From assembly GCA_947650285.1 (NCBI GenBank), contig CANTFL010000073.1, forward strand, positions 285,753-349,752: a stretch of DNA of 64,000 nt, in the 5' to 3' direction. The notes below the pieces were generated by a model. The model did no database searches and was not told the DNA's origin. It saw nothing but the letters and a program-made list of their open reading frames with translations. Origin of the DNA: Hyaloperonospora brassicae. Lineage: Eukaryota; Oomycota; Peronosporomycetes; Peronosporales; Peronosporaceae. The translations under genes were made by a program, and so were the position numbers. This document shows, one piece after another, positions 8,727-59,559 of the stretch; positions within the stretch are counted from its first letter, which is position 1, and each line of letters begins with the position of its first letter.

Positions 8727-8745
8727 TCACCCCCCCTCCTCCTTA
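8727..8745 (-). other. Polypurine tract of element B
   Basis: In element sense a purine run ends GGAGGGGGGGTGA immediately before the 3' LTR, the expected plus-strand primer site. Confidence 0.7.
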
Positions 8746-8859
8746 ACCATCAGTAACAATAGTGAGTGGACTTGATTGGCGACAGAGCGACTACCGTCGT
8801 GTCGCCCTTGGGACAGGGAGTACGTGTTGTTCTCTCCTCTCATTTCAGCTTCTCAGCGC

Positions 8860-13607: not shown

Positions 13608-14540
13608 TCCTTAAACAGAGGATTTGCCTGAAGCGACTCCCAGGATTGAGACGTATATCGCTCAATCCGAATCTTCTCATCAAGGACACTTTTGTCCATC
13701 GATGGGATGATGAGAACCCTTTCGTTCTCAGCAAAAACCATCGCCGATAGAATATCGGTGACGTACTCTTCCTCCGCGGAGAGTACAAGGATATGCTTAA
13801 TTTTGCCACTACGCAGATAATGTAAGAACAATTTTGGTTTTAACGTTGGCAAATGAGTTATATCCGTCGTTAACTTCGGAGGCGGAACCTGATCAAGCGT
13901 GTAATCGCCTACTCTTGATCCGTCATTGTCCAAGACATCCAATGTCACGATTACTTTGGGAAATTACATCTACATTGCGGTCTTGTACAGTCGTGCTAAC
14001 GATCGTACCACGAGTGAGGCCATCGCACTCACTCGCAGAACATCCACACGCTTGTGGACGCTCAAAGATGTTCATGAGATGGTCGTCTGATGAACAAGCG
14101 ACAGTCATCGTTACTGATTGATGCTTCCAGCTCACCCTTGGCTCGTATCTTTTGAGCCAAGGTAGTCCTAGGATGACATCAAACTTGTCATCCAGATCGA
14201 GTACGATGAAATCATCATCGTACTGCTCGTCTTTCAACGTGTTGTAGATTCCGGCTACACGTTTCTTCACATTAATCGATGCGCCTGTCACTATGCGTAC
14301 CGTCATTCTCGTTGGAAAGGTGTCCCACTCCACGAAGTTAAAACTTCCGACCTATAGTGACTGGTTACGAACAAAATTGTTCGACGCCCCACAGTCATCT
14401 AGGGCGCAAAGTGACAACTACTTTTTCTCCTCCAACGCAAGGTGATGAGGGACAACTCCTCACCATGTTCAGAGCATACACACAATGATTGTGTGTCTGG
14501 AGCAACCTTCGTCAAGAGATTTGCAAATTCTCTTGAGGTT
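13604..14540 (-). pseudogene. Protease and linker, element B
   Basis: Protease fragments (TRMTVRIVTGASINVKKR, DLDDKFDVILGLPWLKRYEPRVSW) and linker fragments (QACGCSASECDGLTRG; DVLDNDGSRVGDYTLDQ). The linker is shorter than in D: the piece corresponding to D 32270-32590 is deleted. The DCGA active-site region near 14340-14400 is frame-shifted. Confidence 0.78.
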
Positions 14541-15711
14541 GCTGGATCTAAGGGGGCTCTGTACCTACCCCCGTCCATGTTTTTATGGTCCGCTGCGCTT
14601 TTGCGAAACCGCGACAGCGCTGGACCCACGCCCATTGCCCTTTCTGGCAAAAGGTCGTACATTTCGCTCAGTACTGTTTGGTACTGGGCGTGGAGCACTA
14701 CACTCGTATGCGTAGTGCCCTAACTTCTGACAGCGATTGCACCTCTGCAATCGCTTGTTGTTCGAAGAGCGAGGTCTCTCGCTCTCAACATAACAGAGGT
14801 CCATTGGTTCTGGACCTCCGGTCTCCTGTCGTATCGGTGGACGATAAGAGCTCGAGCTTGTATGAGCCTATCTCATATTGTAATCTTCCTGTTCCGCTGC
14901 TGCGATCGCTTGTTCAAGCGTATCCAGCTCTAAACGGAACGGTGGTTCCTGACAGGCCCGTCTGCGAGCCCTTGCATGAACACAGTAATCAACGTGTATT
15001 CATTTACCGGGTTGGCAATTATACTACTCGCAAGGAGTCGTATATGCTGAGCGTAAGCGTGTACATCACGCGTACCCTGTTTAAGTTTCAAGAGCTCAGA
15101 TTAAGACCTGAACTCAGACCGTGGTGGCTCAAACGTTTGTTTGAGCCAATTCTTGAAGGACTCAAGCGACTCAAAGGCACATGGGTCGCTCATCTCAAGC
15201 CCCAAGACCCAAGTCTTGGCACGTCCTGCCAAGTGGGCTTGAGCAAATGTGAGTTTCATTTGCTCATCTTCGATACGACGTGCCCGTATGGCTCTGTCAA
15301 GTTCGACGAACCACAGTAACAGGGAGTCTTCTTCGACTCCTCTGTACTTAGAGATGTCAACCTTCAAGGTTTTAGGACGACGTGTGCTCGTCGTCCCGTT
15401 CACAGCAGCATTCAATCGCTGCTGTCTCAACAGTTCTGTCTGTTAATCACCGAGTTCATTCAACTGCTCGGCCTGTCGAGAGCCTTGCTGGTGAAGCAAG
15501 GAAATTTTTCGCGTTCGTCGATAAGTTCATTCTGAATGAACTTGGCTATAGCGCCATGTTGGAGTCCCTTTACAGGGGCTCCAACATGCTGCTAATGGCT
15601 GTTTTGCCGACGGTAGAACTCATTCGTTCTACCGCCCTCCATTCGATGTCACTCAAATGGTCAAAGCCTTCACGAGTTGCGTAAAAGATCTCCTTCTCAT
15701 TCAACATTTTC
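14541..15711 (-). pseudogene. gag: Gag, element B
   Basis: ATG at about 15711 (MKMLNEKEIFYATREG), N-terminal coiled-coil region broken near 15440-15530, capsid core at 15101-15430 (KVDISKYRGVEEDSLLLWFVELDRAIRARR) and a zinc knuckle at about 14690-14740 (CNRCQKLGHYAYEC). Downstream, the slippery run has changed to ATAAAAACAT, so the frameshift heptamer is not intact. Confidence 0.8.
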
Positions 15712-15745
15712 ATGTCGGATGAGGTGGTTTTGGTCGCTGGAAGGA

Positions 15746-15761
15746 CTACAAAGTGCTACCA
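15746..15761 (-). other. Primer binding site of element B
   Basis: Sense TGGTAGCACTTTGTAG, identical to A, D and F. Confidence 0.7.
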
Positions 15762-15763
15762 GG

Positions 15764-16198
15764 TGTAACAAGGCACACCTTGTGTCGACACGACACAAGT
15801 CGAGGTGCACCTGACGTGACGTGCACGTGCGAGGAAGCGCACTCAAGTTGCGGAACCCGAAGACTTTCGTCAAAGGAAAAAGTAGAACTGGTATTTAATA
15901 TAGTTACGTTTTCCTATCTAAAACATCTTTGACTTGCTCTGACTATATTAAACTACCATCTCTTATGTGGGACTCGTGCTCACCACCCATTGCGCGCGTC
16001 TAGCAGCGATTGGTGGTCAATCTGGTTGATGTAACGTGTACATCAACCAAGTGGAGCACCCACGAATATTACCCTTGGGGGTAATATTCTGACAACGTCA
16101 CCTCTTCGAGTGATGTTGATTTGAGTATCATCTAAAATAGATACTACCCAAAAATTAATACTTTCTATCCCTTTTATGTAACGGGCTCACCCCGTTAT
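15764..16198 (-). repeat. 5' LTR of element B
   Basis: 435 bp from TGTAACAAGG to CCCGTTAT, the last bases replacing the expected TTACA. The PBS (15746-15761) adjoins on the left. Confidence 0.88.
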
Positions 16199-21327: not shown

Positions 21328-21860
21328 GTAGCAAAGCTACACAGCTCCTTAAGTCAGAGGAAGACTTAACTCTCTTACGAGAAACTTTGGTTCTACGAAA
21401 CCGACTCATAGAGTCATCAGCTCAGAGAGCTAAGATTTGGTTCTACGAACCCGACTCCGAGAGTCAACAGCTCATCGAGCTTACGGTCCCCGTTCCTGAG
21501 CGACCAAACGATTCAAAAGAATCACAGCATAGAGTTCTCAGGAGCAGCTACCTTCACAGATATTGCTAGCTCCTACCGATCAAAGACGCCTCGTAAGGCA
21601 CGTATCTTTCAGTGATCAAAAGGGGAACTGAACTTTATTTCGTCTTTAAACCTAAAAGAACACTATAGAACAACGTACTTAACCTAGTCACTAAGGTACT
21701 AAATATAACCTCTCAAAAGATTTCGCAATCAATTGTTAAAAGACATCAGTCTTCAACAATTGATACACGTGTTCTAATATCACTTTACAGGGTACCCCCT
21801 CTCTCTCTTGTGTGCACCACACCTATCGTGGACTACTAGTCGACGTGTAACCCCGTTACA
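21328..21860 (-). repeat. 3' LTR of element C
   Basis: 533 bp, TGTAGCAAAG to CCCCGTTACA, preceded in element sense by the polypurine tract TTGGAGGAGGG. It is about 49 bp longer than the 5' LTR because a unit containing TTTGGTTCTACGAA is present twice (about 21380-21480) instead of once. A strong hairpin with arms CAATTGTT and AACAATTG spans 21730-21762. Confidence 0.93.
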
Positions 21861-21966
21861 CCCTCCTCCAATAGACTGACGTTACCACAAAACGTCAATC
21901 GGTTTCTTTCCTCGAAGAGGACGGTGTGTGTGCGCTTAACCTCACGGTTGCAAAACACGAAACACC

Positions 21967-23265
21967 ATGGCATCACCACCCAACGAGTCTCGGACTCTTT
22001 CCTCCTACCTCGATTTTGATGAGGATGTGGACTACGGTAATGATACCAGTGTCCCTGGAGATGACGGGAGATCGTCCCACTCCGCTGTATTTGAGGCTCG
22101 ACCTTTAACAGCACAAATTCTTTCGCTAAACGTGGTGTGACCATAGCGCCAGGGGCGCAGCATCATACACTGGATGCAGATGAGAACATCATCACGAACC
22201 CGCTCGACGACCAACAGGAGCTTATCCGTCAGCGAGAGGAGCGTGCTCTAAGTCGCACTCATACCCAAACGGTTATTCGAAACCGGAGTGGTTACGTGTT
22301 TACAACACCTGACGTGGAGCAACGCCTTTGTCAAACGGAAGGCCGTAGCCTGTCAACATGGGCCATTGTCCCAGAGGCTACGTCGCCAGAAGATATCGCC
22401 CATCGCAAGGCTCTAAATGAGAGATATATCGAACCGTACTTGACCACTCAAGGTCAGTACCGCATGCATCTTGAGAGCTAATCTCGTGGTGTTTCGGTTC
22501 TACCGATAAAGGGCGTGCCCATCTTGTTGTTCGCTGGCGAACTGCCCGAGGAGGAGGACAATCAGTTCATCTGTTGGGTATACCGCAAGAGGCATCTTAG
22601 CAGTGTTCCAGCGCTGCGGGCCAGCGCCGATTTGGCTGACGTTCCTTTGGAACGCAAGCTCCGCTTCAAGTACTCCAAGATCAAGGCGAGAGGCCAGTTG
22701 CGTACTCGTACGCGTTATGCTCCGGCTACGATGATAACCACGGGTCACGACCCTAAGGTGCGGAGCAACACGCTACCTCCCACCACTATTGGTGAAAAGC
22801 GTTCTCGTTCGCAAGGCGACCCTGGCCACGATGCTCAAAAACATCCACGGCGTAAGGGCAGTCCTGCCGAACGGGTATCTCATACTTCCACGAGTTCTCC
22901 GACTCCGAGTACCATCGCCACTTCACCAGATACTGGTTTGGCCACGACAACGACGCCGCTGAAGGATTTTCTCCACATGGAACTGTGGTTCCCTTGATCA
23001 TCGAGCTGCGTCGGTGGTGGTCGGGTTACCGAAGGAGGAGAATGAGAAGGTGCTCCGTGAGCTGAGTGGTCTCCAAGAGACATTGGGTAAGACCCAGAGT
23101 AATTTTGACGCGATGCAAGCCCGTGTCCAGGCGTTGGAGTTGGTCCGAACCCGGACGGAGGCCCAGCTCGACCTCCTGGTACGAATTCAGCAACCGATGG
23201 CGAGGCCAACCTACCCGGCGCAAGCGCCTCCAGGTTCACTTGGGACGGATCCCGATACGGCTTAA
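21967..23265 (+). pseudogene. Antisense gene of element C (aORF), broken
   Basis: Opposite to pol, starting at ATG 21967 about 100 bp inside the 3' LTR. Pieces: 21967-22140 (MASPPNESRTLSSYLDFDED, acidic N-terminus), then a frame from 22137 to 22997 with one TAA at 22479-22481 (DDQQELIRQREERALSRTHT; LPEEEDNQFICWVYRKRHL; an S/T/P-rich stretch), then 23014-23265 with a clear coiled coil (KEENEKVLRELSGLQETLGK to AQLDLLVRIQQ). Two frame changes near 22130 and 23000. The sequence is unlike the family 1 aORF, but position, orientation, acidic start and coiled-coil end are the same. Function unknown. Confidence 0.6.
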
Positions 23266-23590
23266 GCAAGCCAGTATAAAACACGGGGTGTGTGCGCAGT
23301 TTGCGCGGAAGGTTTAGCGTGTACGCAAGTCCCTTCTTGGCACGACCGTGAATGGCCCAATGAAGCGCGGACGCAACTTTGTCTTGAAGACGGTAGACAC
23401 TACATGTGTAGGTATGTTTTTAGCATTTAGTATAACTTGGTGTCCGACCTCATAACGTTCAATACATCCTATGCCTTTAGCATCAGCTTGTTCCCTTTGT
23501 TCATCTTGGTTATCAGCCAGTGCATCACGCACGTGTCGTAACACATCCAATCGCGTAGCGAGAAACTCGCTTGCCTGTTTTGAACAGTAG
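22786..23590 (-). pseudogene. Pol C-terminus of element C: GPF module and chromodomain
   Basis: GPY/F-like segment KLRPRFIGPFTVV (about 23350), the typical VFYTGLLKPYRDP block (about 23240-23284), a P/S/G-rich linker and a chromodomain core QYLVKWRWYSESENSWKYE (about 22880-22940). Frame changes occur at about 23300 and 22990. The linker and chromodomain overlap the aORF in antisense. Confidence 0.78.
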
Positions 23591-24434
23591 CAGGGACGAT
23601 ATCAGCAAGCAGATCGGCCATCTCTCCCCCACCAAGCTCTAAACCAGGCAGTGGTAGCGTTAACGGAACGCGAGGGTGTGTGAGTCCGTTCACGTAGAAC
23701 GGGGTAAATCCTGTAGAGGCGTGAACAGCGTTATCTAACGCAAACTCAACAACAGGAAGCATTGAACTCCAACGTGTTGGTGTATTAGCGCAAACACTGC
23801 GTAATATGTCACCGATAACACGATTGACTAGCTCGGTTTGACCATCGGTCTGCGGATGATCCTTCGTGGACATGCCCGAACGTGTACCGAGCACCTTGAA
23901 GATGGACCTTCAAAACTTATGAGTGAAGCGAGGATCTCTATCAGAGACAATGGCCAACGGCAAGCCGTGTTGTCGAAACACGCGATCGATAAACAGCGTC
24001 GCTGTACCCTCACCATCAATGGTATTTGGCACCGCTGCTAAGTGAGCCATCTTGCTCAAACGGTCAACAAAGACCAAAATACCCGTATTTCTATACGAAT
24101 CCTTCGGTAAACCGAACAGGAAGTCCATACTGATGGACTCCCAACACCCTTTAGATATCAGCAAATTAGCCAGCGGCGCCGCCGCGTGAGGTGAGGGTTT
24201 CGCCCCTTGACACGTTTCACACGTACGCACATATGTGCTCACCCATTTGTATAGTTTAGGCCACCAATTGTATAGGCTAACTGAGCCGTAGGCCTTCTCT
24301 AGACCGAGATGACCACTCAACGTAGTATCATGCGCCTCATTGAGGATCCGATATTTCAACTCCTCATCATGAGGGACAACGATGCGAGGAGTATCCTCCA
24401 ACATCCGTGCTATATCACAACAGGTCTTAATCAA
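23469..24434 (-). pseudogene. Integrase, element C
   Basis: HHCC finger (NEAHDTTLSGHLG, CETCQGAKP), DDE residues in SISMDFLFGLPKD, VSDRDPRF and DGQTELVNRVIGD. A break between 23894 and 23910 separates the second and third catalytic residues; otherwise the core is well preserved. Confidence 0.87.
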
Positions 24435-25959
24435 TGAAATATCGATGTAGCCTCACACGTAATTGTGCCGACAATTCTATATCCGAGTCCTTGAACTCCT
24501 CGCTCTCTAGAGCACGTAGCAAAGCTACACAATGTTCATCCTTGGCGTATGCCGTACGGATTAGGTCAATGACCGATGACGACAAAGTCGTAACATAAGC
24601 AAGCTCATAGTCAGGCCTGGGTGACAACGCATCAGCCAAAGTATTCTGCGTTCCCGGCTTATACTCTACCTCGAAGTTGTATTCAGCAAAGAATAAAAGC
24701 CAACGAGCCATTCCCTGAGAGAGGTGGGGCGACTGGGTCGCAGTGCGTAATGACGCATGATCTGTATAGATCACAAAAGGCTCAGAGCCGAGCAGATGAG
24801 CTCTGAATTTGACTAAAGCATACTTCATCGCAAGTAGCTCTTTGTCATGAACTGGATAGTTCTTCTCAGCTGTCTTGAGCTGTCGGTACTCAAACGCAAT
24901 GACGCGTTTCTGTCCATCATCATCTATATGTAACAGAGCACTGCCGATGGCAAAGTCAGATGCGTCACAGACGACACTGAAAGGCCGATCAGGATCGAAC
25001 AAAGTCAAAATTGGCGCATGAAGAAGACTCTCTTTTACAGCCGTAAAGGCTTCATGCTCGGTGTTAGTCCAACACCATTCCGTATCCTTTTTAAGGAGAT
25101 TGGATAATGGCCGAGCCATGTCCGCATAGTTTGCACTATATTTGTGTAAGTAATTGGCAATACAAAGCCACTTACGTAAGTCCTTTTGGTTCTTAGCAAC
25201 CGGCCAATCGACTATGGCTATAATCTTAGCGGGATCCGCTCTAAGACCACGCTTCCCAATAAAGCACCCTAAAAAGGGAATCTCTTCTGCACCAAAGATG
25301 CACTTAGACGCGTTGGAGTACAACTTATTCGTGCGCGTGAACTCGAGCACCGCTCGTAAATGGTCAATGTGATTGTCCACATCAGACCGACCGTTCATAG
25401 CACGACTATGGACAAAGATGTCGTCAAAGTACGTCTGTGCATAACCTCTATGAGGTCTGAACAATTGTGTCACAAGACGATTGAATGTATCTGGGGCGTT
25501 TGACAAGCCCTGTGGCATAACTAGCCACTCCCAGAGCATACCGCTCGGGGTGCTAACCGCTGTCAGCGGAATATCATTCTCGCGCATGAGAAGTTGGTAA
25601 TAACCATCGACTAAGTCGAGCGCAATGTACATTGTACATCCCACCATGTTGTTCTGAATAACATCTTTCCTAGGGTTTGGTTTCTGAGCCGGGATCGTGG
25701 CAGCATTAAGCTTATTGTAAGCATGAACAATGCGCCACTTCCCGTTGGGCTTTCGGACACAAAATGTGGGCGTGGAATGAGGAGATTTGCTCTCACGAAC
25801 CATGCCCGCTGCGTGCTCTGTACTAAAGAAGTCGTCTATGACATCACACTGCTCCTTTGGTAAAGGCCACTGCCGTGTTACGCAGTATTTAGTTCCAGGA
25901 ACCAAGTCAATTTCGCGACGCCCACCTCTGTCAGGAGGTAAGACGGCGGGTCGTGACAC
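24427..25959 (-). CDS. RT and RNase H of element C (open 510-codon frame)
   Basis: An uninterrupted frame covers the whole RT and RNase H: REIDLVPGTKYCVTRQWPLP, WRIVHAYNKLNAAT, ALDLVDGYYQLLM, MPQGLSNAPDTFNR, catalytic box YFDDIFVHS (about residue 168), thumb, and RNase H residues in CDASDFAIGSALL, KELLAMKYALVKF, YTDHASLRTA and the end motif NTLADALS. All catalytic Asp/Glu seem present. It is part of a Gag-Pol polyprotein, so the annotated start is only the first Met in frame. The Cys that is TGA in A and D is Ser here. Confidence 0.88.
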   Translation of the reverse strand: MSRPAVLPPDRGGRREIDLVPGTKYCVTRQWPLPKEQCDVIDDFFSTEHAAGMVRESKSPHSTPTFCVRKPNGKWRIVHAYNKLNAATIPAQKPNPRKDVIQNNMVGCTMYIALDLVDGYYQLLMRENDIPLTAVSTPSGMLWEWLVMPQGLSNAPDTFNRLVTQLFRPHRGYAQTYFDDIFVHSRAMNGRSDVDNHIDHLRAVLEFTRTNKLYSNASKCIFGAEEIPFLGCFIGKRGLRADPAKIIAIVDWPVAKNQKDLRKWLCIANYLHKYSANYADMARPLSNLLKKDTEWCWTNTEHEAFTAVKESLLHAPILTLFDPDRPFSVVCDASDFAIGSALLHIDDDGQKRVIAFEYRQLKTAEKNYPVHDKELLAMKYALVKFRAHLLGSEPFVIYTDHASLRTATQSPHLSQGMARWLLFFAEYNFEVEYKPGTQNTLADALSPRPDYELAYVTTLSSSVIDLIRTAYAKDEHCVALLRALESEEFKDSDIELSAQLRVRLHRYFID

Positions 25960-25967
25960 ACCACGTC

Positions 25968-27073
25968 CTATAATTCCTTAACCAAAGGATAAAACGGATC
26001 AAGAGGATCCTTAAGGATCGAAGACCCAATACGCGCACTAAGTGCAGCCTTTGTGTCCTCCTGGACTGATTCCTTCAATAACGAGGATGAGTTCAACTCA
26101 TTATCCGGCCGAATGACCACTAATTTTGATAACTCTCCTGCCTTTAAGGCTTGGATAAATTCGCCGTCAGACATTTCATCTAGTTCAAAGCGAGTATCAA
26201 AAGATGGAAGAGTCTCAAGACTAATGTTGCCAAAAACATGGCCGGTCGTTCCATTGACAAGTGTATATAGTGTATTATCACTATTATCGCTCCTTAAGAC
26301 TTCGTACGCCTGGCTCTTAACAGTTACACCCGACGTCTAAATTGTGTCCTCAAAGAAACTATACGCCTCCTAGAGGCCGGGACAGTAGGGTCTCTGTAGT
26401 TGCTATTCGGTAAAGCACGCTCTATACGAGACCTCATGTCTAGAACGACATCTGGTGAAGTGTCAAACTCGGACACTTCACCCAGTGGGTTTACACGTAC
26501 CACTTCACGTTCATCCCGCGGGCCTAGCCCTGCATACTCTGGCGCTTCGCCAACAATGTCATTACCGACATTCAGTGAGGTGTCATCCCGGCCGCCCTCA
26601 CTCAGTGGAATTTCACGTGCCACTTCACGTACAGCATTTGGGCCTAGCCCTGAATGCTCTGGCTTTTCACCAACAATGTCATTACCGATATTCAGTGAGG
26701 TGCCAACTCGGCCGCCCTCACTCGGTGAAATTTCACGTGCCTCCCCACGCACATCAGAGGAATTACATTCTTGATGTCTTGGCCCTTGACATTCCATGCT
26801 AGTAGCATGCAGTGACTCATTATCACAACGAGTATCACTCAAAGGAGTACAAGTCTCTTCAAATACGTTAGAAGAGCTCCGCTCAATATTCATGTCGTAG
26901 ACATTCGAGTTAATTAGCTCCGACACACCAATGTCCAGCACATTGACATCTTTCGTCAATGGCTCGCGCCAATAGCGCTTTTGTTGCCTAGCGAAGGTGG
27001 ATTCATGACTCTCCAAAGTTTCACTAGGAACATTGCGCGTTGCGCCTAAGGTCTTAGACTTCCAATATTCCAT
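25968..27073 (-). pseudogene. Pol linker between protease and RT, element C
   Basis: Two frames (27073-26324 and 26174-25968) encode an acidic, low-complexity linker without a recognised domain, about 330 residues in all. It contains the internal tandem repeat at 26450-26770. It occupies the same place as the equally long family 1 linker but is unrelated in sequence. Confidence 0.65.
26450..26770 (-). repeat. 120-bp tandem repeat in the element C linker
   Basis: About 2.5 imperfect copies of a 40-residue unit, each with the pattern EGGR-x-x-TSLN-x-GNDIVGE followed by LGP. Period 120 bp, so the frame is kept. Confidence 0.75.
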
Positions 27074-27456
27074 GGCTCATGGCTTTCTAGCCAAGCCATA
27101 CCTAGGATGAGATCATATCTCGAATCCAAATCGAGGACAAGACAGCGTTCAATGCTGTCAAAGTCCAAAAACTTTACACCCAAGTTCAGCGGAACTTTAG
27201 GCACAGTAACGCGACTACCCGTCGCTAACCGAACAGTGATGGAATCACCGTCGTGCGCTTTGAGCGCTTCAGCGTATCGCTGACTTCCCTCAAGGGAACG
27301 ACGTCGAGCATAATTGCATGATGCTCCTGAGTCGATCGAAATCGACCACGGCTTCTCAAAGCATTTCACTGTCGCCTCGGCGACTAACAATCCAGGCTTG
27401 TATCCACGCTCTGTTCTTGTTGGCACGGATCTCTGTGAGGCTAAGCCCTGTTTCAC
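27046..27456 (-). CDS. Aspartic protease of element C
   Basis: Retropepsin-like domain: active site SIDSGASCNYARR, then DSITVRLATGSRVTVP, and the second conserved hydrophobic-G motif YDLILGMAWL. It lies in the -1 frame relative to gag. The stretch between the frameshift site and 27456 contains one TAA (about 27490), which would stop Gag-Pol here. Confidence 0.82.
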   Translation of the reverse strand: MKQGLASQRSVPTRTERGYKPGLLVAEATVKCFEKPWSISIDSGASCNYARRRSLEGSQRYAEALKAHDGDSITVRLATGSRVTVPKVPLNLGVKFLDFDSIERCLVLDLDSRYDLILGMAWLESHEPWNIGSLRP

Positions 27457-27509
27457 TCTACCTCGTAGAGAAGTGACAGAATTTGGTTATACCGCAGTAG
27501 GGAGCCTCA

Positions 27510-27534
27510 CACCTACAGGGTGTCGACGTTTCCC
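27510..27534 (-). promoter_or_regulatory. -1 ribosomal frameshift site, element C
   Basis: Sense heptamer G GGA AAC (plus 27528-27534), in Gag phase, five codons before the gag TAG. A small hairpin ACACC/GGTGT follows. Slipping by -1 enters the protease frame. GGGAAAC fits the X XXY YYZ consensus. Confidence 0.65.
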
Positions 27535-28547
27535 CGTGCCATACCAGGTTTCTGGTTGAGGCTGGGGTTTTGACTCGTAGGAGTTGGTCGTTGCTTACGC
27601 AAAGGACCAGTGGGACGCAAGTGTCTAGTGCTTCCGCACATGTAACAGTGTGTCACGTCCTGCCTTTGCTCCGCAACATGAAGCTCCGGTTCTCCTTCAT
27701 CTTCAGCATGGATGAGATCCATCGGTTCTGGCTTACCGTAAGCCGAAGTGCTCGTAGAGGTTGCCCTCGCAAAGCTTGGGTTGTACCCATTCCAACCAAG
27801 TCTGGCCGAGTTGAAGTTGTGCTCAGCGTTTTGAGCGACGCTTACAGCTTCCGTAAAAGTAGAAGGATGGACCCAAAAAACCTTGGTTCTGTCCACGCCA
27901 GTGCGGAGACCTTCCATGAAGACTGTCACGTAGACAGTCCCAAGGAGAGGGTCAGACTACATAGCAGCCATCAGAGATCTCAACTCTTGGACATAGTCCG
28001 TTAACTCACTCTTACCCTGACGGGTAGATAATAAGCGTGATCGCACGCGGTATGACTGGTTAGGCGGCGAGAAAACTCGCAAGAGGTCCAACTTGAGCGA
28101 CTCCCACGTGGGGAACGCCAAGTTGACCGACGTGCCACACGTCAAAGCCCACTCTCTCGCTCTTCCATCGAGCTTAAAGATAGCCAACGAGACCCGCTGG
28201 TTCTCAAATGAGTTGAGACCAGAGTCCATGGCCATCTTAATCTCACGAATCCAGAGGGTAGGGTTTTCCCCCTCCTTCCCAAAGTAATGTTTCACGTCCA
28301 CCCGAAGGGGACGAGGCTTAGCCTCTTATGGTGGCATAGCCACGTAGCGTGTCGGCATAGCCGACCATACTTGTTTTTGAACCTGGCCCAACATGGCCGT
28401 TTCGTACTGCATGAAGGTCTCGACTCGTGCATTAAGCACATCGGGACCTTGTGCAGCTAGAAAATCCACGTACTCATGGCCAACGGCCGCGGTCAGCTTA
28501 TCAAGCGCGACCTTTTGAGCCTCAGAGAGGGGTGTGGATTGCTTCAT
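27513..28547 (-). pseudogene. gag: Gag, element C
   Basis: One frame of 345 codons from ATG 28547 with nonsense codons at 28328-28326 (TAA) and 27959-27957 (TAG). Capsid core with WIREIKMAMDSGLNSF, FKLDGRAREWALTCG, LLSTRQGKSELTDYVQELRSL and VFMEGLRTG. The zinc knuckle reads CYMCGSTRHLRPTGP, with Gly where the last Cys is expected, so nucleic-acid binding is probably impaired. Confidence 0.85.
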
Positions 28548-28606
28548 CCTTACAGAGGATCAGTCGTTACCGACTCAGGCGTAGATTGACTACAAGTGCT
28601 ACCAAG

Positions 28607-29090
28607 TGTAGCGGAGCTACACAGCTCCTTAAGTCAGAGGAAGACTTAACGCTCTTACGAACAACTTTGGTTCTACGAACCCGAATCAGAGAGTCAATAG
28701 CTCATCGAGCTTACGGTCCCCGTTCCTGAGCGACCAAACGATTCAAAAGAATCACAGCATAGAGTTCTCAGGAGCAGCTACCTTCACAGATATTGCTAGC
28801 TCCTACCGATCAAAGACGCCTCGTAAGGCACGTATCTTTCAGTGATCAAAAGGGGAACTGAACTTTATTTCGTCTTTAAACCTAAAAGAACACTATAGAA
28901 CAACGTACTTAACCTAGTCACTAAGGTACTAAATATAACCTCTCAAAAGATTTCGCAATCAATTGTTGAAAGACATCAGTCTTCAACAATTGATACACGA
29001 GTTCTAATATCACTTTACAGGGTACCCCCTCTCTCTCTTGTGTGCACCACACCTATCGTGGACTACCAGTCGACGTGTAACCCCGCTACA
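28607..29090 (-). repeat. 5' LTR of element C
   Basis: 484 bp, TGTAGCGGAG to CCCCGCTACA. Apart from the single-copy internal unit it is very close to the 3' LTR, suggesting a fairly young insertion. Confidence 0.93.
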
Positions 29091-30067: not shown

Positions 30068-30459
30068 TGTAACGGGGCAGCCCGTTACATGAAATTGTCA
30101 CTTTAAGGAAAGTGACAATAAAGAATATAAAGATGGATATTCTTTAAACAATATCACCAAAGTGGTGATATTGAAGGGTCGACCAAAGGGTCTGTTCATT
30201 GGTCGATATCGTGATGATATCAACCCACCAATCGCCGCAAGACGCGCGCAATGAGTGGTGACGAGACGTCACCATACATGCAGTTATATTAGTATAGTTA
30301 AGCTAAGTCAAACAGAGAGACAGTAGTTAAAAGACTTAATTATATTAATATAACCAGTTCTGCTTATACCCTACCTACGCTTCCTCGCTTGCCACGTGTA
30401 CGTCTGTCGGGGCACCGAATACCCTTGCGTTAAGTTACGCAAGGGTGTGCCCCGTTACA
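30068..30459 (+). repeat. 5' LTR of element D
   Basis: 392 bp from TGTAACGGGGCAG to TGTGCCCCGTTACA. Its two ends form an inverted repeat of about 12 bp, much longer than the usual TG...CA. Inside are hairpins at 30068-30089, 30121-30144, 30149-30173 and near the 3' end (CTTGCGT/ACGCAAG). A TATA-like stretch lies at about 30341-30353. Confidence 0.95.
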
Positions 30460-30461
30460 CC

Positions 30462-30477
30462 TGGTAGCACTTTGTAG
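30462..30477 (+). other. Primer binding site of element D
   Basis: TGGTAGCACTTTGTAG two bases after the LTR; primer tRNA unassigned. Confidence 0.72.
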
Positions 30478-30503
30478 TCCTTCCAAGGACCACATCATCC
30501 AAC

Positions 30504-31658
30504 ATGAACATGTTGGATGAAGAAGACACCTTTCACGCCACGCGTGAAGGGTTTACCCATTTGAGTGACATCGAATGGGGTGCGGTAGAACGAATGAGTT
30601 CTACCGTAGGCGAACTCGTCGTCAGCACCATGTTGGAGTCTCTAGACAGAGACCAACAACATGCTGCTATCGCCAAGTTCATTCACAATAAACTTGCTCT
30701 CGAGAGGGAGAAAGTAGCCTTGCTTCACCAGCAAGGCTCTCAACAGGCCGAGCAGTTGAGAGAACTCGGTGCTCAACAGACAGAGCTGTTGAGACAGCAG
30801 CAATTCCATGCTGCTGTGGGCGGGACGGCGCATGCGCGTCGTCCCGAAGTCATGAAAGTTGACATCTCCAAGCACAGTGGAGTCCCGGAGGACTCCCTGT
30901 TACTGTGGTTTGTCGAACTCGACAGAGCCCTAAGGGCTCGTCGCGTCGAAGATGAGCAAATGAAACTCACATTTGCTCAGACCCACTTGGCAGGGCGTGC
31001 CAAAACTTGGTCCCTGGGACTCGAGCGTAGCGACCCAAACGTGCTTAGGTCGCTAGATGACTTCAAGTCCCGGCTCAGACAAACGTTTGAGCCGCCACGT
31101 GCTGAGTTCAGGGCTCGTTCAGAGCTCCTGAAACTCAAGCAGGGTAAGCGTGATGTGCACGCTTACGCACAACATATACGACTCCTTGCGAGTAGTATAA
31201 CTGCAAACCCAGTTCATGAACACACGTTGATTACGGTGTTCATGCAAGGGCTCGCAGAGGGGCCCGTCAGGAGCCACCTGTTCCGCCTTGAGCTGAATAC
31301 GCTTGAAGAAGCGATATCAGCCGCGGAACAGGAAGACTTTAGCATGAGACAGGCTCATGCTAGCTCAAACTCTTACCGTCCACCGAGACGACAAGAGATC
31401 GGAGGTCCAGAACCAATGGACCTCTGTTATGTTGAGAGCGAGAGACCTCGCTCTACAAGCAACAAGCGATTGCAGAGGTGCAATCGCTGTCAGAAGTTAG
31501 GGCACTACGCATACGAGTGTAGTGCTCCACGCCCAGTACCAAACAGTACTGAGCGAAATGGACGACCATTCGCCAGAAAGGGCAATGGGCGTGGGTCCAG
31601 CGCTGTTGCGAAGCCGCAACAGCGAGACGGACCATCAAAAAATGGTCGGGGTCAGTAG
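30504..31658 (+). CDS. gag: Gag polyprotein, element D
   Basis: 384 residues, intact. Residues about 50-110 are rich in Q, E, L and R and predicted coiled coil (ALEREKVALLHQQGSQQAEQ). The capsid-like core spans about 125-260 (ISKHSGVPEDSLLLWFVELD, LTFAQTHLAGRAKTWSLGLE, LLKLKQGKRDVHAYAQHIRL). CCHC zinc knuckle CNRCQKLGHYAYEC at 326-339, followed by a basic tail. The start ATG 30504 lies 26 bp after the PBS; Met 506-equivalents in A and B support a start here or two codons later. The gag stop sits inside the frameshift stem-loop. It is the only fully open gag in family 1 in this window. Confidence 0.93.
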   Translation: MNMLDEEDTFHATREGFTHLSDIEWGAVERMSSTVGELVVSTMLESLDRDQQHAAIAKFIHNKLALEREKVALLHQQGSQQAEQLRELGAQQTELLRQQQFHAAVGGTAHARRPEVMKVDISKHSGVPEDSLLLWFVELDRALRARRVEDEQMKLTFAQTHLAGRAKTWSLGLERSDPNVLRSLDDFKSRLRQTFEPPRAEFRARSELLKLKQGKRDVHAYAQHIRLLASSITANPVHEHTLITVFMQGLAEGPVRSHLFRLELNTLEEAISAAEQEDFSMRQAHASSNSYRPPRRQEIGGPEPMDLCYVESERPRSTSNKRLQRCNRCQKLGHYAYECSAPRPVPNSTERNGRPFARKGNGRGSSAVAKPQQRDGPSKNGRGQ

Positions 31659-31677
31659 GGGCGGAGCGCCCTACTGA
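31637..31677 (+). promoter_or_regulatory. -1 ribosomal frameshift signal, element D
   Basis: Heptamer A AAA AAT at 31637-31643 in Gag phase, 8-nt spacer, then a stem TCAGTAGGG (31652-31660) / CCCTACTGA (31669-31677) with loop GCGGAGCG. The gag TAG is at 31656-31658, within the stem. Slipping by -1 gives the protease frame, open through LLTKVAPD. Confidence 0.8.
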
Positions 31678-32937
31678 TCCAGCAACCTCAAGAGAATTTG
31701 CAAATCTCTTGACGAAAGTTGCTCCAGATACACAATCATTGTGTGTCTCTGCACCTGGTGATGACGTTTCGCTCATCACCTTGAAGTTGGAAGCGACAAA
31801 TGATTTGTCGCTTCGTGCCCTAGTAGACTGTGGGGCGTCGAACAACTTTGTTCGTCGCCAGTCACTAGAGGGTCGTAGGCTCAAGTTCGTTGAGCGCGAC
31901 ATTCCCCTCACAAGGATGACAGTGCGCCTTGCAACAGGCGAATCGATCACTGTGAAGAAACGTGTAGTAGGAATCCACTACGCGTTAGAGGGCGAGCAGT
32001 ACGATGATGATTTCATCGTATTAGATCTGGATGACAAATTGATGTCATCCTGGGATTACCTTGGCTCAGAAAATACGAGCCAAGGGTGAGCTGGCAGCAT
32101 CGATCCGTGAAGATGCCTGCTGCTTGTTCATCAGATGGCCATCTGATGAACATCTTGGAGCGTCCACAAGCGTGTGGATGTTCTGCGAGTGAGTGCGATG
32201 GCCTCACTTGCGGTACGGTCGTTAGCACGACTGCACAAGATCACAGTGTAGTTGATCACTACACTGTGGAGCAAGCTCCCGGCGGCTGTACAGAAGTACA
32301 GGATGCGCCGAAGGTCCACCACTCGAATAAGTCGAGTGGACCGGGACATGGATGCATGCCTAGCGGGCAGCATCTTAGAAGAAAGAAATCTGTTGCCCCC
32401 AAGGGGCAACATGAAAATCCTAGGTCGACTGGAGAGTCGACCGTAGAGAATCGGTTCCTGACTGTGGTTGCACAGCCACAGTCGGAAGACGTCGAGGGAA
32501 TAAGTCCCCACGTACTTGAGGAAGGAATTCCTCAAGAGTCGCTTGCTGAGGGATCAGGCCCTCAGCAACCTGTGGAAGCAAGTTCCCAGGAAGAAACCGA
32601 GACGTTGAACGTCTTGGTTAATGACGGATCAAGCGTAGGCGCTTATACGCTTGATCTGATTGTGCTTCCGAAGTTGACTTCGGAGATAACTCAGTTGCCG
32701 ACGCTAGAACCGAAACGGTTCTTGCGTGATCTGCGTAGTGGCAAAGTCAAGCAGATCTGCATACTCGTCACAGAGGACGAGTATGTGACCGACATTCGGT
32801 CGGCAACAGTATTTGCTGAGAACGAACGGGTTCTCAGCAGCTCATCGATGGACGAAAGTGTCCTCGATGAGAAGACTCGGATTGAGCGATACAGCGTCCC
32901 AATCCTGGGAGTCACTTCAGGCAAATCCTTTGTATAA
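31643..32937 (+). pseudogene. Protease and linker of Pol, element D (two compensating 1-nt indels)
   Basis: Protease site ALVDCGASNNFVRRQ with Cys in the D-T/S-G position, then RMTVRLATGESITVKKR and VLDLDDK. One T is missing near 32040 relative to B (AAATTGATG against AAGTTTGATG), moving translation to the next frame, which encodes the linker 32086-32937: a C-rich motif QACGCSASECDG, a KSSGPGHGC block, an E/S/Q-rich stretch and KRFLRDLRSGKVKQICILV. An extra base near 32892 (IERYSVPIL instead of IERYTSQSW) restores the RT frame. The linker is as long as a domain, but I know no family for it. Confidence 0.85.
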
Positions 32938-35340
32938 GGATTTGATTGAATTCAGGGATGTGTTTCCTGAATCCGTACCTTGCGAGTTGCCTAAGGACAA
33001 AGGCACTCGACACGAGATCGAGCTCAAACCGGGCTCGAAATACTGTGTCATGAAGCAGTGGCCACTGCCTCGTGAACAAGTGATAGCGATCGACAAGTTC
33101 TTTGCCGATCGCTTAGCAGCGGGCCATGTGAGGGAATCAACATCCCCTCACAGCTCTCCGACCTTCTGTGTGCGAAAGGCCACAGGAGGGTGGCGGATAG
33201 TGCACGCATTCAACAAATTGAATGCTGCAACGGTACCGGCTCAGACGCCGATACCGAGGAAGGACGTAATCATAGATGGTATGTCTAAGAGTACCATCTT
33301 TTCGTCCATGGATCTGATGGATGGATTCTATCAGATCCTGATGCGTGAACGGGACGTCCCGTTCACGGCAGTGAGTACCCCTTGCGGGATGCTGTGGGAG
33401 TGGCTAGTGATGCCACAGGGGCTGAGCAATGCCCCTGCAACATCCAACAGATGTGTCACAAATCTGTTGAGACCGGTGCGAGACTTCGCACCGAGTTACT
33501 TCGACGATGTGTTCGTCCATAGCCGGGCTATGGACGGAAAGACGGACGTGGAAGTTCACAGAACTCACGTTCGTCAGGTTCTTCAACTTATGCGCAAGTA
33601 TAAGTTGTACACCAACCTCAAGAAGTGTATATTCGCGGCTAGCGAAATACCGCTTCTTGGGTGCATCGTGGGTAAACACGGCGTACGCCCTGATCCCGAA
33701 AAGATCAAGGCGATCACCGACTGGCCAGTGCCAGTCGATGTCAAGGGACTAAGGAAGTTCCTTGGTCTAGCGGCGTGCTTGCACAAGTACTCGCGCAACT
33801 ACGCCGAGATGACTGTTCATCTTTCTTGATTGCTCAAGAAAAATGTCAAGTGGTCATGGAACGCTGAGTGCCAGCGTTACTTTGAAGGTATCAAGCAAAG
33901 CTTGATGCAATCGCCGATCTTGGCGATTGCAGATCAGGACAGACCATTTCATGTGGTCTGTGACGCCAGCGATTTTGCAATCGGCTGAGCGTTAATGCAG
34001 TTCGATGCAGATGGCGCGGAGCGCGTCATCTGTTATCAGTCGCGTCAGCTGCAAGCAGCTGAGCGTAATTACCCAGTTCATGACAAGGAACTCCTTGCCA
34101 TGAAATACGCACTGGCTAAGTTTCGCGTCTATCTCCTGGAAGATAGACCGTTTGTTGTCTACACGGACCATGCGTCACTACGCACGGCCGTAAACAGCCC
34201 ACACCTCTCGCAAAGAATGGCGAGGTGGCTGTCTTTCTTCGCGGAGTATAACTTCTCCGTGGAGTATAAACCGGGACGACTCAATGTCGTCGCGGATGCT
34301 CTTTCGCGCCGGCCCGATTTCGAGCCGGACGCACAATCCAACAGTGAGGATAAGCCCACTGTTGCGACACTGTCAGTCAGTGTCCCGTCGTCAAGTCTAC
34401 TTGACGACGTACGAAAGGCATACGCGGAAGATAAGGATCTTCTGCGATTGATGGATCATCTGGTGAATCCATCTAGTAAATCCATGAGGGATTTACCGGC
34501 TTTGTACCGATCCTCATCGGATCGGTATAGTACACGCAACGGATTGCTTTACTATACAGCTGTTGCCGACGACACGCCTCGTGTCGTCGTACCCGCTCAT
34601 CATGATTTGCGATTGCGCATCATGTATGAGTGTCACGATGCCCCAACAAGCGGCCATCGTGGTAGAGAAAAGACTTATCTCACGGTAAGTCGCGACTTTT
34701 ACTGGCCCCGCCAGTATCAGTTTGTTCGCAAGTACATCCGTGCTTGCGAAGTTTGTCAACGGGTGAAGCCTAGTCCTTCATCCCGTGCGCCATTGCAGCC
34801 TCTGCCTGTTCCGACAGAGTGCTGGCAGTCCGTTTCAAATGACTTCGTCTTCGGGAAACCCGAAGACGCTCACAAGAATAATGGTATTCTTGTGTTTGTG
34901 GACCGATTCAGCAAGATAGTCCATCTTGCTGCAGTCCCTGAGTCAATCAAGGCTCAAGGTTGTGCTCGTGTCTTTCTAGACACGGTCTTTAGACTCCACG
35001 GGTTACCCCGTGAACTCGTATCCGACCGTGACCCTCGGTTCACGGCGGAATTTTGGCAAACCGTGTTCCGTACTCTCGGAACACGATTGAAGATGTCCAC
35101 TTCTGACCATCCAGAAACAGATGGTCAGACGGAACGTGCGAACCGTGTCCTCGAAGAGATCCTTCAAGGATTTGTCCACTCGTTTCCGAGTTGGAGCGAA
35201 TTCCTACCCATGGTGGAATTCGCCATCAATAATTTGGTGCATGCTTCAGCACAGCACACACCGTTTTACGTGAATGGCCTACGCCATCCACGAGTGCCCA
35301 CCCTTATAGAGTGTGACTCTTGGATAAGGGGGGAGGGACT
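32813..35340 (+). pseudogene. RT, RNase H and integrase, element D (two in-frame TGA)
   Basis: RT: CELPKDKGTRHEIEL, WRIVHAFNKLNAAT, SSMDLMDGFYQILM, MPQGLSNAPATSNR, YFDDVFVHS (33495-33521). TGA at 33827-33829 replaces Cys in LSCLLKK. RNase H: DASDFAIG, then TGA at about 33986-33988 replacing Cys, ALMQ, KELLAMKYALAKF, YTDHASLRTA, NVVADALSR. Integrase: HHCC (ECHDAPTSGHRG, CEVCQRVKP), DDE in [32 protein letters not shown], and FYVNGLRHPRVP. Apart from the two TGA codons all catalytic residues are present. The frame ends in a G-run at about 35327. Confidence 0.9.
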
Positions 35341-36552
35341 CGCTCGAGCAAAAACCGTTTTGGTTCTTGCTTATCACGTGTCGACGCTAACGTCGTCACG
35401 TATGATGCCGATGTCGATCAAGTCGACATCGATGAAGAAGATCATCTCAATAATAGCGAAGACGCTATTATTGATTCGGATGATGATGACGATGCTGGTA
35501 TATTCATCATCGCCAACGATTATGTCAGCGAGGAAGAAGACAACCTCGCTGAAGAAGAGAACAATCTCTTAGCAGTGCGCACGAAGCGCACTGAAAGACA
35601 AAACAAAGAGTCAGCAGAGACCTTCCTGCTGACTCGAGAGGCGGTAGTCCGTTTTGTTCAGGACTCCATCGCAAATGCGGTGGACCGTCAGAAACGGAAC
35701 GCAGACAAGAATGGAAGAGCAAATGTTCTTTCATTTAAGGTTAATGACCTAGTACTACTGTCAACGGTAAACCTACCTGGACATGCAGTCACTAGTGTCG
35801 GCAGTAGTAAACTACTGCCGAAATACATTGGGCCATTTCGAGTGTTGCATCGCAAGGGCAATGCATACACACTCGAACTGCCACGTAGGATGCGCACGCA
35901 TCCTACGTTTTACGTGGGGAGGCTTAGGTCGTACTGTCAGTACGAGCCTTCTTCTTCCGATGAAGATAGCCCCCACGTTCAAGAACATCCATCAAGTTCT
36001 TGCGTTCGCGCTCCAGACGATCCGTCTGGTCGCGCAGATATGATACCTCGGTATTCAACCGAGATATCTCCCCGCGAGCTGTCGCCAGCTCGCCGAATAG
36101 GGAGCAGACATCCCGCTCGACCTGAAGCTGCGCCGTGGCATAATCGGCGCGATCCCTCGCCCGATCAGCCTCGTGACCCTTGCGGTTCTTCCGCACGGTG
36201 TCGGTCAAAGCGTAGCGTCGGTCGCGCTCGTGCTTCAAGTCATCGCGCAATTCATCGATTGCGCGATCCATCTCGTAAGGGTCGAGATGGTGGGCCTGGG
36301 GTTCTGGAGGAGGTCTTTCCTCCTCCACCACATCCTTTGGTGGATGCTCACGGTGATCAACGCTTTCTAGTGGAGCGTATCTTGAATCACCGTGACGATT
36401 CAGGATCAAGGACGAGCTACCTCGTCCAGTGGCGGGGGTATCCACCCTCTTGGAACAGCTGGGAGCCCCGCTCTCAGCTGTTAATGGATGTTGAAGGTCT
36501 CGTCCACCAGTATGACGAGACCCATCCGATGAGTCCTGTGGCCCATCGGTAA
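35320..36552 (+). CDS. Pol C-terminus of element D: acidic insert, GPF module, chromodomain
   Basis: Frame +1 to the integrase frame because a run of seven G (as in A) is six here. It encodes an Asp/Glu-rich insert (about 35390-35570), a basic/helical stretch (TKRTERQNKESAETFLLTRE), GPY/F-like KYIGPFRVLHRKGNAYTLELP (35820-35882), an R/P/S-rich linker, and a chromodomain about 36357-36520 (QRFLVERILNH, SYLVQWRGYPPSWNSWEP). The stop is at 36550-36552. From 35924 on it overlaps the antisense gene; the compositionally odd linker lies opposite its coiled coil. Confidence 0.88.
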   Translation: MDKGGGTRSSKNRFGSCLSRVDANVVTYDADVDQVDIDEEDHLNNSEDAIIDSDDDDDAGIFIIANDYVSEEEDNLAEEENNLLAVRTKRTERQNKESAETFLLTREAVVRFVQDSIANAVDRQKRNADKNGRANVLSFKVNDLVLLSTVNLPGHAVTSVGSSKLLPKYIGPFRVLHRKGNAYTLELPRRMRTHPTFYVGRLRSYCQYEPSSSDEDSPHVQEHPSSSCVRAPDDPSGRADMIPRYSTEISPRELSPARRIGSRHPARPEAAPWHNRRDPSPDQPRDPCGSSARCRSKRSVGRARASSHRAIHRLRDPSRKGRDGGPGVLEEVFPPPPHPLVDAHGDQRFLVERILNHRDDSGSRTSYLVQWRGYPPSWNSWEPRSQLLMDVEGLVHQYDETHPMSPVAHR

Positions 36553-37531
36553 ACACGCGCCCTAGGCGCTTGTAGACGGATTGCAAGTTTGCAATCGCGT
36601 CACGCATCTCGTCCGAGAGATGTGCCCTTCCCCAGGGCGAATTTAGGGAGTACACATCCCTATGTGCACGCTGCGAGTTGTCAACACAACTCGCACAAGG
36701 GTCTCCCCATGTGAGGCAAGGAATGCCTGCCTCACTAGATAAACAATGCAACCGGTACCTAGCACCGGTTGGCGTTCGCCGTTCGAACCTGAGGCGTGTT
36801 GCCTCAAGTTTCTTGAGCCACCCTTCTCGTCCAAAATTCTTTACGTTTTGGACGAACGCGTTCCACGCAGCCAAAAGCGATGCTTTGTCACGCTTTTGAT
36901 TGCTGTTGTACCATCGATGTCTAAGAAAGACATCGAGATAAAAGTCTTCTTCAGCGCGAAAGTTACTCGCGCTGGAACTCAAGCCGTGAAGCTCGGTTGC
37001 ATCGAATAAGGGTATTCGATGGTGTTGGCCTGTCTCGTGAGACAGGCTATTGATAAGTTGTTCGGGCAAACGCCACGGCTTCAACTCATCACGCTTCACA
37101 GTGGTACCCTTGTCGGAACCACGGCTTCCAGATTGACGACGGCTCGCGCCATCGTCATCACGCTCGTGCGTAGACGCACGAGCCGGCGGTGGTGAAGAAT
37201 AGAACTCACCACCCTGATCATCATCATCATCACTGCCGAACAGACTGTGATGCAAATCACGAGTCCGTTCGTTCGGCAGTGGTCTTGGCGAATACTAAGG
37301 CGTCGCTGGTGAGCGAGACGCCTCTGGAGCATTGCCCGAGTCAGACACGTCTGACTCGCCAGAGTAGATGACCTCCACATCGGGGTCATCGTGCGCACGC
37401 GGCGTGATACCGCGTGCACCTGCAGCACCTGTTGCTGCAGGCGAAGAAGGGGCGGCAGACGACGAAGCGTCTGCCGCAGAGGCTTGCACAGCACCAGGCT
37501 GTGTGGGTCTTGAGTCACCTCGCATAGACAT
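35924..37531 (-). CDS. Antisense gene (aORF) of element D, one TAG
   Basis: A minus-strand frame of 535 codons from ATG 37531, 130 bp inside the 3' LTR, interrupted only by TAG at 37297-37295 (F has a sense codon). Order: Ala/Ser-rich acidic start (DDPDVEVIYSGESD), motif RDLHHSLFGSDDDDD, a K/R/S-rich stretch, a central domain (KRDELKPWRLPEQLINSLSH, IPLFDATELHGLSSSASNF, RHRWYNSNQKRDKASLLAAW), C-x6-C-x2-C (PCLTWGDPCASCVDNSQRAH), a P/E-rich hinge, and a long C-terminal coiled coil (ERDRRYALTDTVRKNRKG, YATAQLQVERDVCSLFGEL, TDRLERERKNLMDVLERG) with a basic tail. Homologues occur in B and F. Function unknown; a regulator or particle component made from an antisense promoter in the 3' LTR is inference. 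Confidence 0.75.
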
Positions 37532-37649
37532 GTTAACTATGCGAGGTCAAGCGGAAAGTGAATGGAACGGACCCAACAAGTGCTCCCTGTCCCAATGGTG
37601 GCCAACGGGTGGCCTCCATATTTCGATAGTCACACGGTGACTATCAGTT

Positions 37650-37661
37650 AAGGGGGGGTGA
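37650..37661 (+). other. Polypurine tract of element D
   Basis: AAGGGGGGGTGA immediately before the 3' LTR. The TGA trinucleotide between the G-run and the LTR is also present in B and F. Confidence 0.75.
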
Positions 37662-38051
37662 TGTAACGGGGCAGCCCGTTACATGAAATTGTCACTTTAA
37701 GGAAAGTGACAATAAAGAATATAAAGATGGATATTCTTTAAACAATATCACCAAAGTGGTGATATTGAAGGGTCGACCAAAGGGTCTGTTCATTGGTTGA
37801 TATCGTGATGATATCAACCCACCAATCGCCGCAAGACGCGCGCAATGAGTGGTGACGAGACGTCACCATACATGCAGTTATATTAGTATAATTGAATTAA
37901 GTCAAACGAAGAGACAGTAGTTTAAAGACTTAATTTATTAATATAACAGTTCTACTTTTACCCTACCTACGCTTCCTCGCTTGCCACGTGTACGTCCGTC
38001 GGGGCACCCAAATCCCTTGCGTTAAGTTACGCAAGGGTGTGCCCCGTTACA
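37662..38051 (+). repeat. 3' LTR of element D
   Basis: 390 bp, near-identical to the 5' LTR with scattered substitutions and two or three 1-bp indels, concentrated at positions equivalent to 30290-30360. Confidence 0.95.
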
Positions 38052-55907: not shown

Positions 55908-56331
55908 TGTAACGGGGCACTGACCAGGACGAAGATTACTATCACTGACTGCAATGGAGGTCAGTGCCCAGCGAGGTGTAGGGTTATACAGAGGAAGATA
56001 GAACGACTAAGGCACAGACTCTAGTCGTGGTAAAAGTAAAACTCTCCCTAAGTAATAAAGTCCTATAACTCTTGTGTCTCTGTTTGTCCTGACTTAATTA
56101 TACTAATATAACTAAACGTATGATGACGTCTAATCACCACCCATTACGCGCTTCTAGCAGCAATTGGTGGGTTGATATCATCACGATATCAACCAATGAG
56201 TAGTGGACCCTTTGGTCATCACAAGAAAATTACCATGCTTTGTGATATTGTTGAAAGAGTGTTCAACGTAATATTCGTCATTGTGATTTTATCCTTAATG
56301 ACAATTTCATGTAATGGAGTACCTCTTTACA
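55908..56331 (-). repeat. 3' LTR of element F
   Basis: 424 bp, TGTAACGGGG to CTCTTTACA; polypurine tract sense AAGGGGGTGA adjoins on the right. Confidence 0.92.
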
Positions 56332-56456
56332 TCACCCCCTTACTGAATCAAATCGTGTGACTATCAAAACTTTGTGGCCGGCCGTTGGATACCAACGGAA
56401 CGAAGAACATTTGTTGGTTAGATCCATTCATTCTGACTTTGCCTCGCATACTTAAC

Positions 56457-59558: not shown

Positions 59559-59559
59559 G

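Follow-up and report, generated by a model that had tools for sequence, protein, structure and literature searches.

The window considered here is the whole stretch of 64,000 nucleotides that was analysed from contig CANTFL010000073.1 of the oomycete Hyaloperonospora brassicae, the host assembly comprising 100.56 Mb in 898 contigs. Its forward strand carries element D (30068..38051), which, judging from its domain content, is a Ty3/Gypsy chromodomain long terminal repeat (LTR) retrotransposon of chromovirus-like type. Element D is tiled over its full length with short hairpins, the subject of this analysis.

Element D and Its Hairpin Tiling

Element D exhibits matches to the Pfam families Retrotrans_gag, RVT_1, RT_RNaseH, Integrase_H2C2, rve, and Chromo, and is bounded by two LTRs that are 95.9% identical: a 5' copy of 392 bp with TG...CA ends (30068..30459, plus strand), inside which lie several hairpins listed in a sequence-only reading of the window, and a 3' copy of 390 bp (37662..38051, plus strand), immediately upstream of which a purine-rich tract is located. 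The gag frame (30504..31658, plus strand) contains Retrotrans_gag and Ty3_capsid matches, together with a zinc-knuckle match that falls below the Pfam cut-off. The pol region (32789..36552, plus strand), encoding reverse transcriptase (RT), RNase H, integrase, and chromodomain, is disrupted in the window copy by in-frame stop codons as well as a frame break, and a frame of at least 1339 amino acids is kept by dozens among the 148 genomic matches listed. The named relatives of D pol with the highest identity belong to Peronospora (89% and 82%), others to Globisporangium and Phytophthora. An antisense open reading frame (ORF) of 456 amino acids (35924..37294, minus strand), likewise hairpin-tiled, overlaps the end of pol. 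Where it lies outside pol, its divergence from the related elements B and F, described below, peaks at its own third codon positions. It has 21 related proteins, those named by organism coming from Hyaloperonospora and Peronospora, and a Pfam search with it gave no match.

Hairpins were counted as perfect, non-overlapping inverted repeats with loops of at most 15 nt, with the mean of 30 dinucleotide shuffles serving as the baseline. Element D contains 133 such repeats with arms of at least 7 bp, compared with 6.7 in the shuffles; for arms of at least 8, 10, and 12 bp, the counts are 108 vs 1.7 (maximum 5), 37 vs 0.03, and 6 vs 0, respectively, the longest arm being 14 bp. The tiling described in the sequence-only reading is thus stronger than had been claimed, and its chance estimate, approximately one hairpin with 8-bp arms in 4 kb, is in line with the shuffled value of 1.7 per 8 kb. 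Among the 13 hairpins for which it gave coordinates, 12 are perfect to within 1 base at either end, including a 24-bp palindrome within the RT coding sequence (33344..33367) and two directly adjacent hairpins (36242..36290, both examples on the plus strand); the remaining one, 30631-30658, is nested and interrupted, a hairpin being found at 30638-30653. When mismatches are allowed, 223 hairpins with a median spacing of 34 nt between centres cover 66% of D, compared with 96-109 hairpins and 28-33% coverage in three shuffles. The excess is uniform: between 30001 and 38000, each of eight blocks of 1 kb has a z value of 13.7-17.3. In the part of the window from 38 to 56 kb, the z values of such blocks range from -1.5 to 2.8.

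The coding frames were compared with 100 synonymous-codon shuffles each, in which the protein was kept (arms of at least 8 bp). The uninterrupted pol frame of locus L011, a sister copy of D, contains 51 hairpins vs 1.2 in the shuffles, the gag frame of D 13 vs 0.6, the RNase H-integrase frame 18 vs 0.7, and the antisense ORF 18 vs 0.4. The synonymous-shuffle check proposed in the sequence-only reading therefore leaves the density in the D family far above the shuffled level, and the reported spread of the hairpins through gag, pol, the antisense overlap, and, by example, the LTRs holds. These comparisons show that the hairpins of D are fitted through synonymous codon choice, with the protein constraint retained. 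The codon register of the stems is biased against the pairing of third positions with third positions (7/51, P=0.003 against the register mix of the shuffles), as would follow from fitting hairpins into a coding sequence whose protein needs to be preserved. Neither a strong regular period of hairpin centres, in D or in element C, nor a shared motif in the closing pairs of D was found. The density recurs in 38 fetched D-family loci, some of which are one copy fetched twice, at 12.5-14.3 hairpins/kb.

Hairpin Size and Its Distribution among Retrotransposon Families

Three further elements of the window, all on the minus strand, form one clade with D (approximately 80-93% identity to D pol): element A (1..5169; 93%), element B (8289..16061; 82-87%), and element F (55924..63382; 80-82%), with 9.2, 8.1, and 4.8 hairpins/kb, respectively, at arms of at least 8 bp. 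Element C (21436..28965, minus strand) belongs to a separate Gypsy family that is 64-67% identical to D where alignable. By the measure used for D, 30 loci of the C family yield 0-0.45 hairpins/kb, and C had been named in the sequence-only reading as a hairpin-free control. This role could not be upheld, since C is also tiled, with a shorter unit: the C copy L045 contains 44 hairpins of 5 bp with a 3-nt loop, vs 5.1 expected. In the same copy, arms of 8-12 bp are absent at loops of 2-9 nt, a single 11-bp arm having a longer loop, and C arms mostly end at 5-6 bp. The stems of C show no third-third register bias (30/85, P=0.30). In the triloop hairpins of C pol (L045 and 29 other loci, L039-L068), a pyrimidine occupies the 5' closing position in 78% of 51 cases (58% in shuffled sequence), and the stem position three bases away from the loop holds a G in 51% (29% in shuffled sequence); these preferences are insufficient to define a recognition site.

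The size of the hairpins is limited in each family. In D, 108 of 116 stems (arms of at least 8 bp, loops of at most 60 nt) span 17-31 nt with a mode of 23-26 nt, and clear enrichment is confined to hairpins whose loops do not exceed about 15 nt. Because the hairpins are local and no single long pair of terminal inverted repeats is present, an identity of D as a Foldback element or miniature inverted-repeat transposable element (MITE) was rejected. In the family of locus L078, 16 of 19 stems (arms of at least 7 bp, loops of at most 30 nt) span 17-26 nt, most commonly 19-22 nt. Hairpin size is therefore shown to be family-specific, at about 13 nt in C, 19-22 nt in the L078 family, and 23-26 nt in D.

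Measured against synonymous shuffles, the z values for tiling are 26.6 in D, 9.9-10.2 in C, and 9.3, 4.7, and 7.0 in the Gypsy loci L078, L079, and L080. As L078 and L080 are 99% alike, the sample represents four Gypsy families, all of which are tiled. Five Copia loci of the same genome, which may not all represent distinct families, gave z values of 0.2, -0.9, 0.2, 1.2, and 2.6 in the same test. Within the sampled loci of this genome, tiling is consequently found in Gypsy only. A search of viral contigs confirmed no relatives, although it may omit records close to the genome of the window, and prokaryote contigs yielded a single distant Gypsy-like contig, L072 (31%), in which four N-free pieces of the matching reading frame gave z values of 0.4-3.7, a mild excess of hairpins at most. 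This contig, PAFA01000096.1, carries a Ty3/Gypsy-like pol frame and is binned as a marine Phycisphaerae bacterium; it is probably eukaryotic contamination of the bacterial bin.

Several other observations concern the surroundings of these elements. The segments 19839-20138 and 43058-43357 form a near-identical pair (97%) 23 kb apart and are perhaps the LTRs of an element E enclosing C and D. The stretch 16001-20000, which has no assigned element, exhibits a weak hairpin excess (z of 1.9-4.6 per kb) and is perhaps an old Gypsy remnant. A search with PF14529 (LINE endonuclease) returned one weak match.

Maintenance, Strand Symmetry, and Possible Origin of the Hairpins

Variants among genomic copies were used to determine whether the hairpins are maintained. 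Of 34 D-family pol copies given, 31 were analysed, three being dropped as identical or for a short alignment; all 29 C-family copies were retained. D variants were divided into private ones, occurring in one copy, and shared ones, occurring in several, with the expectation derived from matching change types in 500 draws. Shared synonymous variants break a hairpin in only 2 of 71 cases vs 22.9 expected (the minimum of the 500 draws being 11), while private ones do so in 15 of 68 vs 22.9, a value as low as that of 7 of the 500 draws. The two classes differ in their share of breakers (Fisher P=0.0005). In C, private synonymous variants are equally frequent in stems and non-stems (ratio 1.02), and those occurring in at least three copies are depleted in stems (ratio 0.65, P=0.04). 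Something maintains the hairpins of D.

The positions of individual hairpins are less durable. Within the clade, D and B have 27 hairpin centres in common, D and F 20 (in D pol), and B and F 17, with approximately 0.2 expected for each pair, and compensatory double changes are numerous (13 vs about 0.7 expected from F to D, 10 vs 0.6 from B to D). At greater distances, 3 of 20 D hairpins are also found in C (0.25 expected), and 1/22, 0/12, and 0/19 in L078, L079, and L080, respectively, at about 67% identity. L079 (71-75% identity to L078 and L080) has 2/11 and 3/5 centres in common with them, and two C subfamilies that are 10% apart have 60/87 and 60/78 in common. Across these sequences, the hairpin property persists while individual sites turn over.

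Pairing in D is about as strong on one strand as on the other. Against dinucleotide shuffles, the folding-energy excess of D averages 46.1%, all 22 fragments of 350 nt being positive (26-70%), and against synonymous shuffles that of D pol is 46.5%, or 44.1% with other fragments. The antisense strand folds about as well as the sense strand, with 48.7% vs 46.5% in D, 18.1% vs 14.6% in C, and 13.8% vs 14.7% in L078. Stems of D with one mismatch show no preference for G.T (12, compared with 17 A.C and 12 others), and the tiling contains 26 G.T and 26 A.C among 1919 pairs, both scored as mismatches. Of the pairs predicted in D, 5.9% are G-U, vs 12.7% in its shuffles. Totals of A.C (91) and G.T (37) over 36 D-family copies were not used because they include variants common to several copies. 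It is concluded that the stability of sense RNA alone does not explain D, which fits a DNA-level target, a both-strand target, or arm-to-arm copying better.

The reading ranked first, with a probability of roughly 0.4, is that selection favours small hairpins, of a size specific to each family, in the single-stranded intermediates of replication. The target would be a folded single strand in the replication cycle of the element. Since D shows no wobble preference and pairs equally on both strands, the leading candidate would be the cDNA while it is single-stranded in reverse transcription, whichever its polarity, followed by the genomic RNA. A partner encoded by the element, such as Gag/nucleocapsid, RT, or integrase, may set the hairpin size, individual hairpin positions would be irrelevant, and the likely benefit would be a strand compacted or protected inside the particle. 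Speaking for this reading are the excess over synonymous shuffles, the register bias and sharp span limit of D, the different unit of C, the restriction of tiling to Gypsy in the sample, the hairpin centres common to the D clade but hardly to other families, the compensatory changes, the scarcity of hairpin breakers among shared synonymous variants together with the stem depletion in C, and the matching folding of the antisense strand. A broader proposal, which is more doubtful, holds that Ty3/Gypsy elements might possess a second, non-protein layer, namely an array of local hairpins along the whole element whose size is read by their own machinery on single-stranded cDNA or both strands, evolving as a counted property rather than as fixed sites, with a heritable size setting per family.

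Certain results weigh against selection on such intermediates. Shared non-synonymous D variants show no depletion of hairpin breakers (9/34), which a simple purifying force does not predict, and a repair-by-copying process could mimic purifying selection. In three of four genes of RNA phages, antisense folding is also approximately equal to sense folding, so that equal folding of the two strands counts for little on its own. For C the picture is mixed: synonymous stem changes present in at least three copies comprise 22 G.T vs 7 A.C, which hints at wobble tolerance in sense RNA; private ones comprise 15 vs 17 and non-synonymous ones 4 vs 11. Differences between the two C subfamilies amount to 25 G.T vs 18 A.C. 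Among 5-bp stems of C, those with one G.T show a slight enrichment (z 2.1), the z value being 0.9 for one A.C and 5.5 for one other mismatch.

A mutational drive, ranked a close second to selection and itself somewhat unlikely, would operate at reverse transcription (or repair): a nascent strand folds back, one arm is copied from the other, quasi-palindromes are perfected and broken ones healed, protein selection retains harmless hairpins, and the size reflects the element's own RT. Such a process would account for strand-symmetric pairing without wobble preference, for tiling of non-coding sequence, and for turnover between families; it would also account for the Copia result, provided that Copia RT does not fold back. 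Template switching is able to create and maintain hairpins, according to the excerpted text of one report (PMC8794818), and repeat conversion has been proposed for hairworm mitochondrial DNA in the part of another that was available (PMC6649704). Where at least two substitutions are clustered within 8 nt, the cluster improves a hairpin in 9 of 39 events (2.2 expected, P=0.0002), two of the nine occurring at the same site. However, these clusters include synonymous changes at adjacent codons, as subfamily recombination would give, and recombination or selection could produce such clusters as well. The sequence-only reading had also suggested a template-switch process, and the one-arm signature that such copying predicts is weak: differences are confined to a single arm in 9/26 broken hairpins between D and F (5.2 expected) and in 4/19 between D and B (5.9 expected). 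The further counts are 10/51 vs 7.7 for the window copies of D and F, 7/34 vs 9.7 for those of D and B, and 6/19 vs 4.3 for B and F. Of 160 private D variants, 14 (8.7%) improve a hairpin, vs 6.0% at random, which is no clear preference, and the ending of most C arms at 5-6 bp also counts against this process.

Sense-strand RNA structure on a genome scale, as in structured RNA viruses and phages, serving packaging or shielding from host sensing or RNA interference (RNAi), is less probable still. It draws on the 46% folding excess over D, on the G.T-rich synonymous changes of C, and on the low conservation of hairpin positions from D to the other families, as described for coronavirus structure in the portion of the source consulted (PMC7642675). 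Opposed to it are the low G-U share of D, which in genes of the phages MS2 and Qbeta is 10-13% (13-15% in their shuffles), the 12 G.T vs 17 A.C of its one-mismatch stems (11 vs 5 in the four phage genes pooled), and the confinement of clear enrichment to hairpins with short loops. Of the selection for a stem-rich genomic RNA suggested in the sequence-only reading, the maintenance of hairpins is retained, while the absence of a G.T preference and the equal folding of both strands do not favour RNA as its object.

Escape from small-RNA silencing, in which self-complementary stretches of 25-26 nt would be poor small interfering RNAs (siRNAs) or hidden targets on both strands, is very unlikely. 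siRNAs arise from both strands, which fits the strand symmetry. The spans of D peak at 23-26 nt, and siRNAs of Phytophthora transposons are 25/26 nt according to the excerpted source (PMC3804510). Within the same host, however, the units of C are 13 nt and those of L078 about 19-22 nt, and the Copia loci, presumably under the same pathway, show little or no tiling; both results weaken the RNAi cause raised in the sequence-only reading. Chance, base composition, codon bias, or an assembly artefact is practically negligible, being refuted by the dinucleotide and synonymous shuffles and by the recurrence of the same density in the 38 fetched D-family loci, against 0-0.45 hairpins/kb in the 30 C-family loci.

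Comparison with Known Systems and Significance

No description of hairpin-tiled LTR retrotransposons was found in the open-licence PubMed Central literature at the level of titles and abstract openings. The elements offer built-in controls, namely one retrotransposon class that has the tiling beside another that lacks it in the same genome, and Gypsy families differing in hairpin size, and their many near-identical copies make the pressure on synonymous sites measurable. The purpose of genome-wide structure, and its origin by selection or by copying errors, can thus be tested directly here, and the case cautions against treating the synonymous sites of such elements as neutral clocks.

Coding palindromes in the mitochondria of Nematomorpha represent one comparable system. 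In the excerpted description (PMC6649704), their arms average 43 bp (up to 142 bp), with 110 repeats of at least 15 bp in four genomes. As in D, these are perfect inverted repeats inside conserved coding sequence; the longer repeats show a bias against third-third register, few of the long repeats are imperfect, and positions are gained or lost between species, as far as the same source describes. The present case differs from that organelle case in concerning nuclear LTR retrotransposons, with capped arms of 5-14 bp, hundreds of hairpins per element, and a hairpin size that varies by family (PMC6649704, in part). No arm of the Nematomorpha type (at least 15 bp) occurs in D. Template-switch mutations are known to give rise to perfect stems and to compensatory changes, in the portion of the literature drawn upon (PMC8794818), from which the present case differs in lacking a clear one-arm templated signature.

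The genomes of MS2 and Qbeta resemble D in being coding sequences with a folding excess of 28-34% over synonymous shuffles in the four genes run, and differ from it in a short-hairpin tiling z of 2.6-6.7 vs 34 in D and in their higher G-U share. In the ordered RNA structure of RNA viruses, as presented in the available part of the source (PMC7642675), an excess over the whole genome similarly arises from consecutive stem-loops whose positions are poorly conserved, with values of about 15% for SARS-CoV-2 and at most 23.4% among vertebrate RNA viruses. Element D differs in its excess of 46%, its few G-U pairs, and the concentration of this excess in hairpins of up to about 31 nt. By this comparison (PMC7642675, in part), D represents an extreme case of a coding genome written for local self-complementarity, its excess being roughly double the maximum cited for vertebrate RNA viruses.

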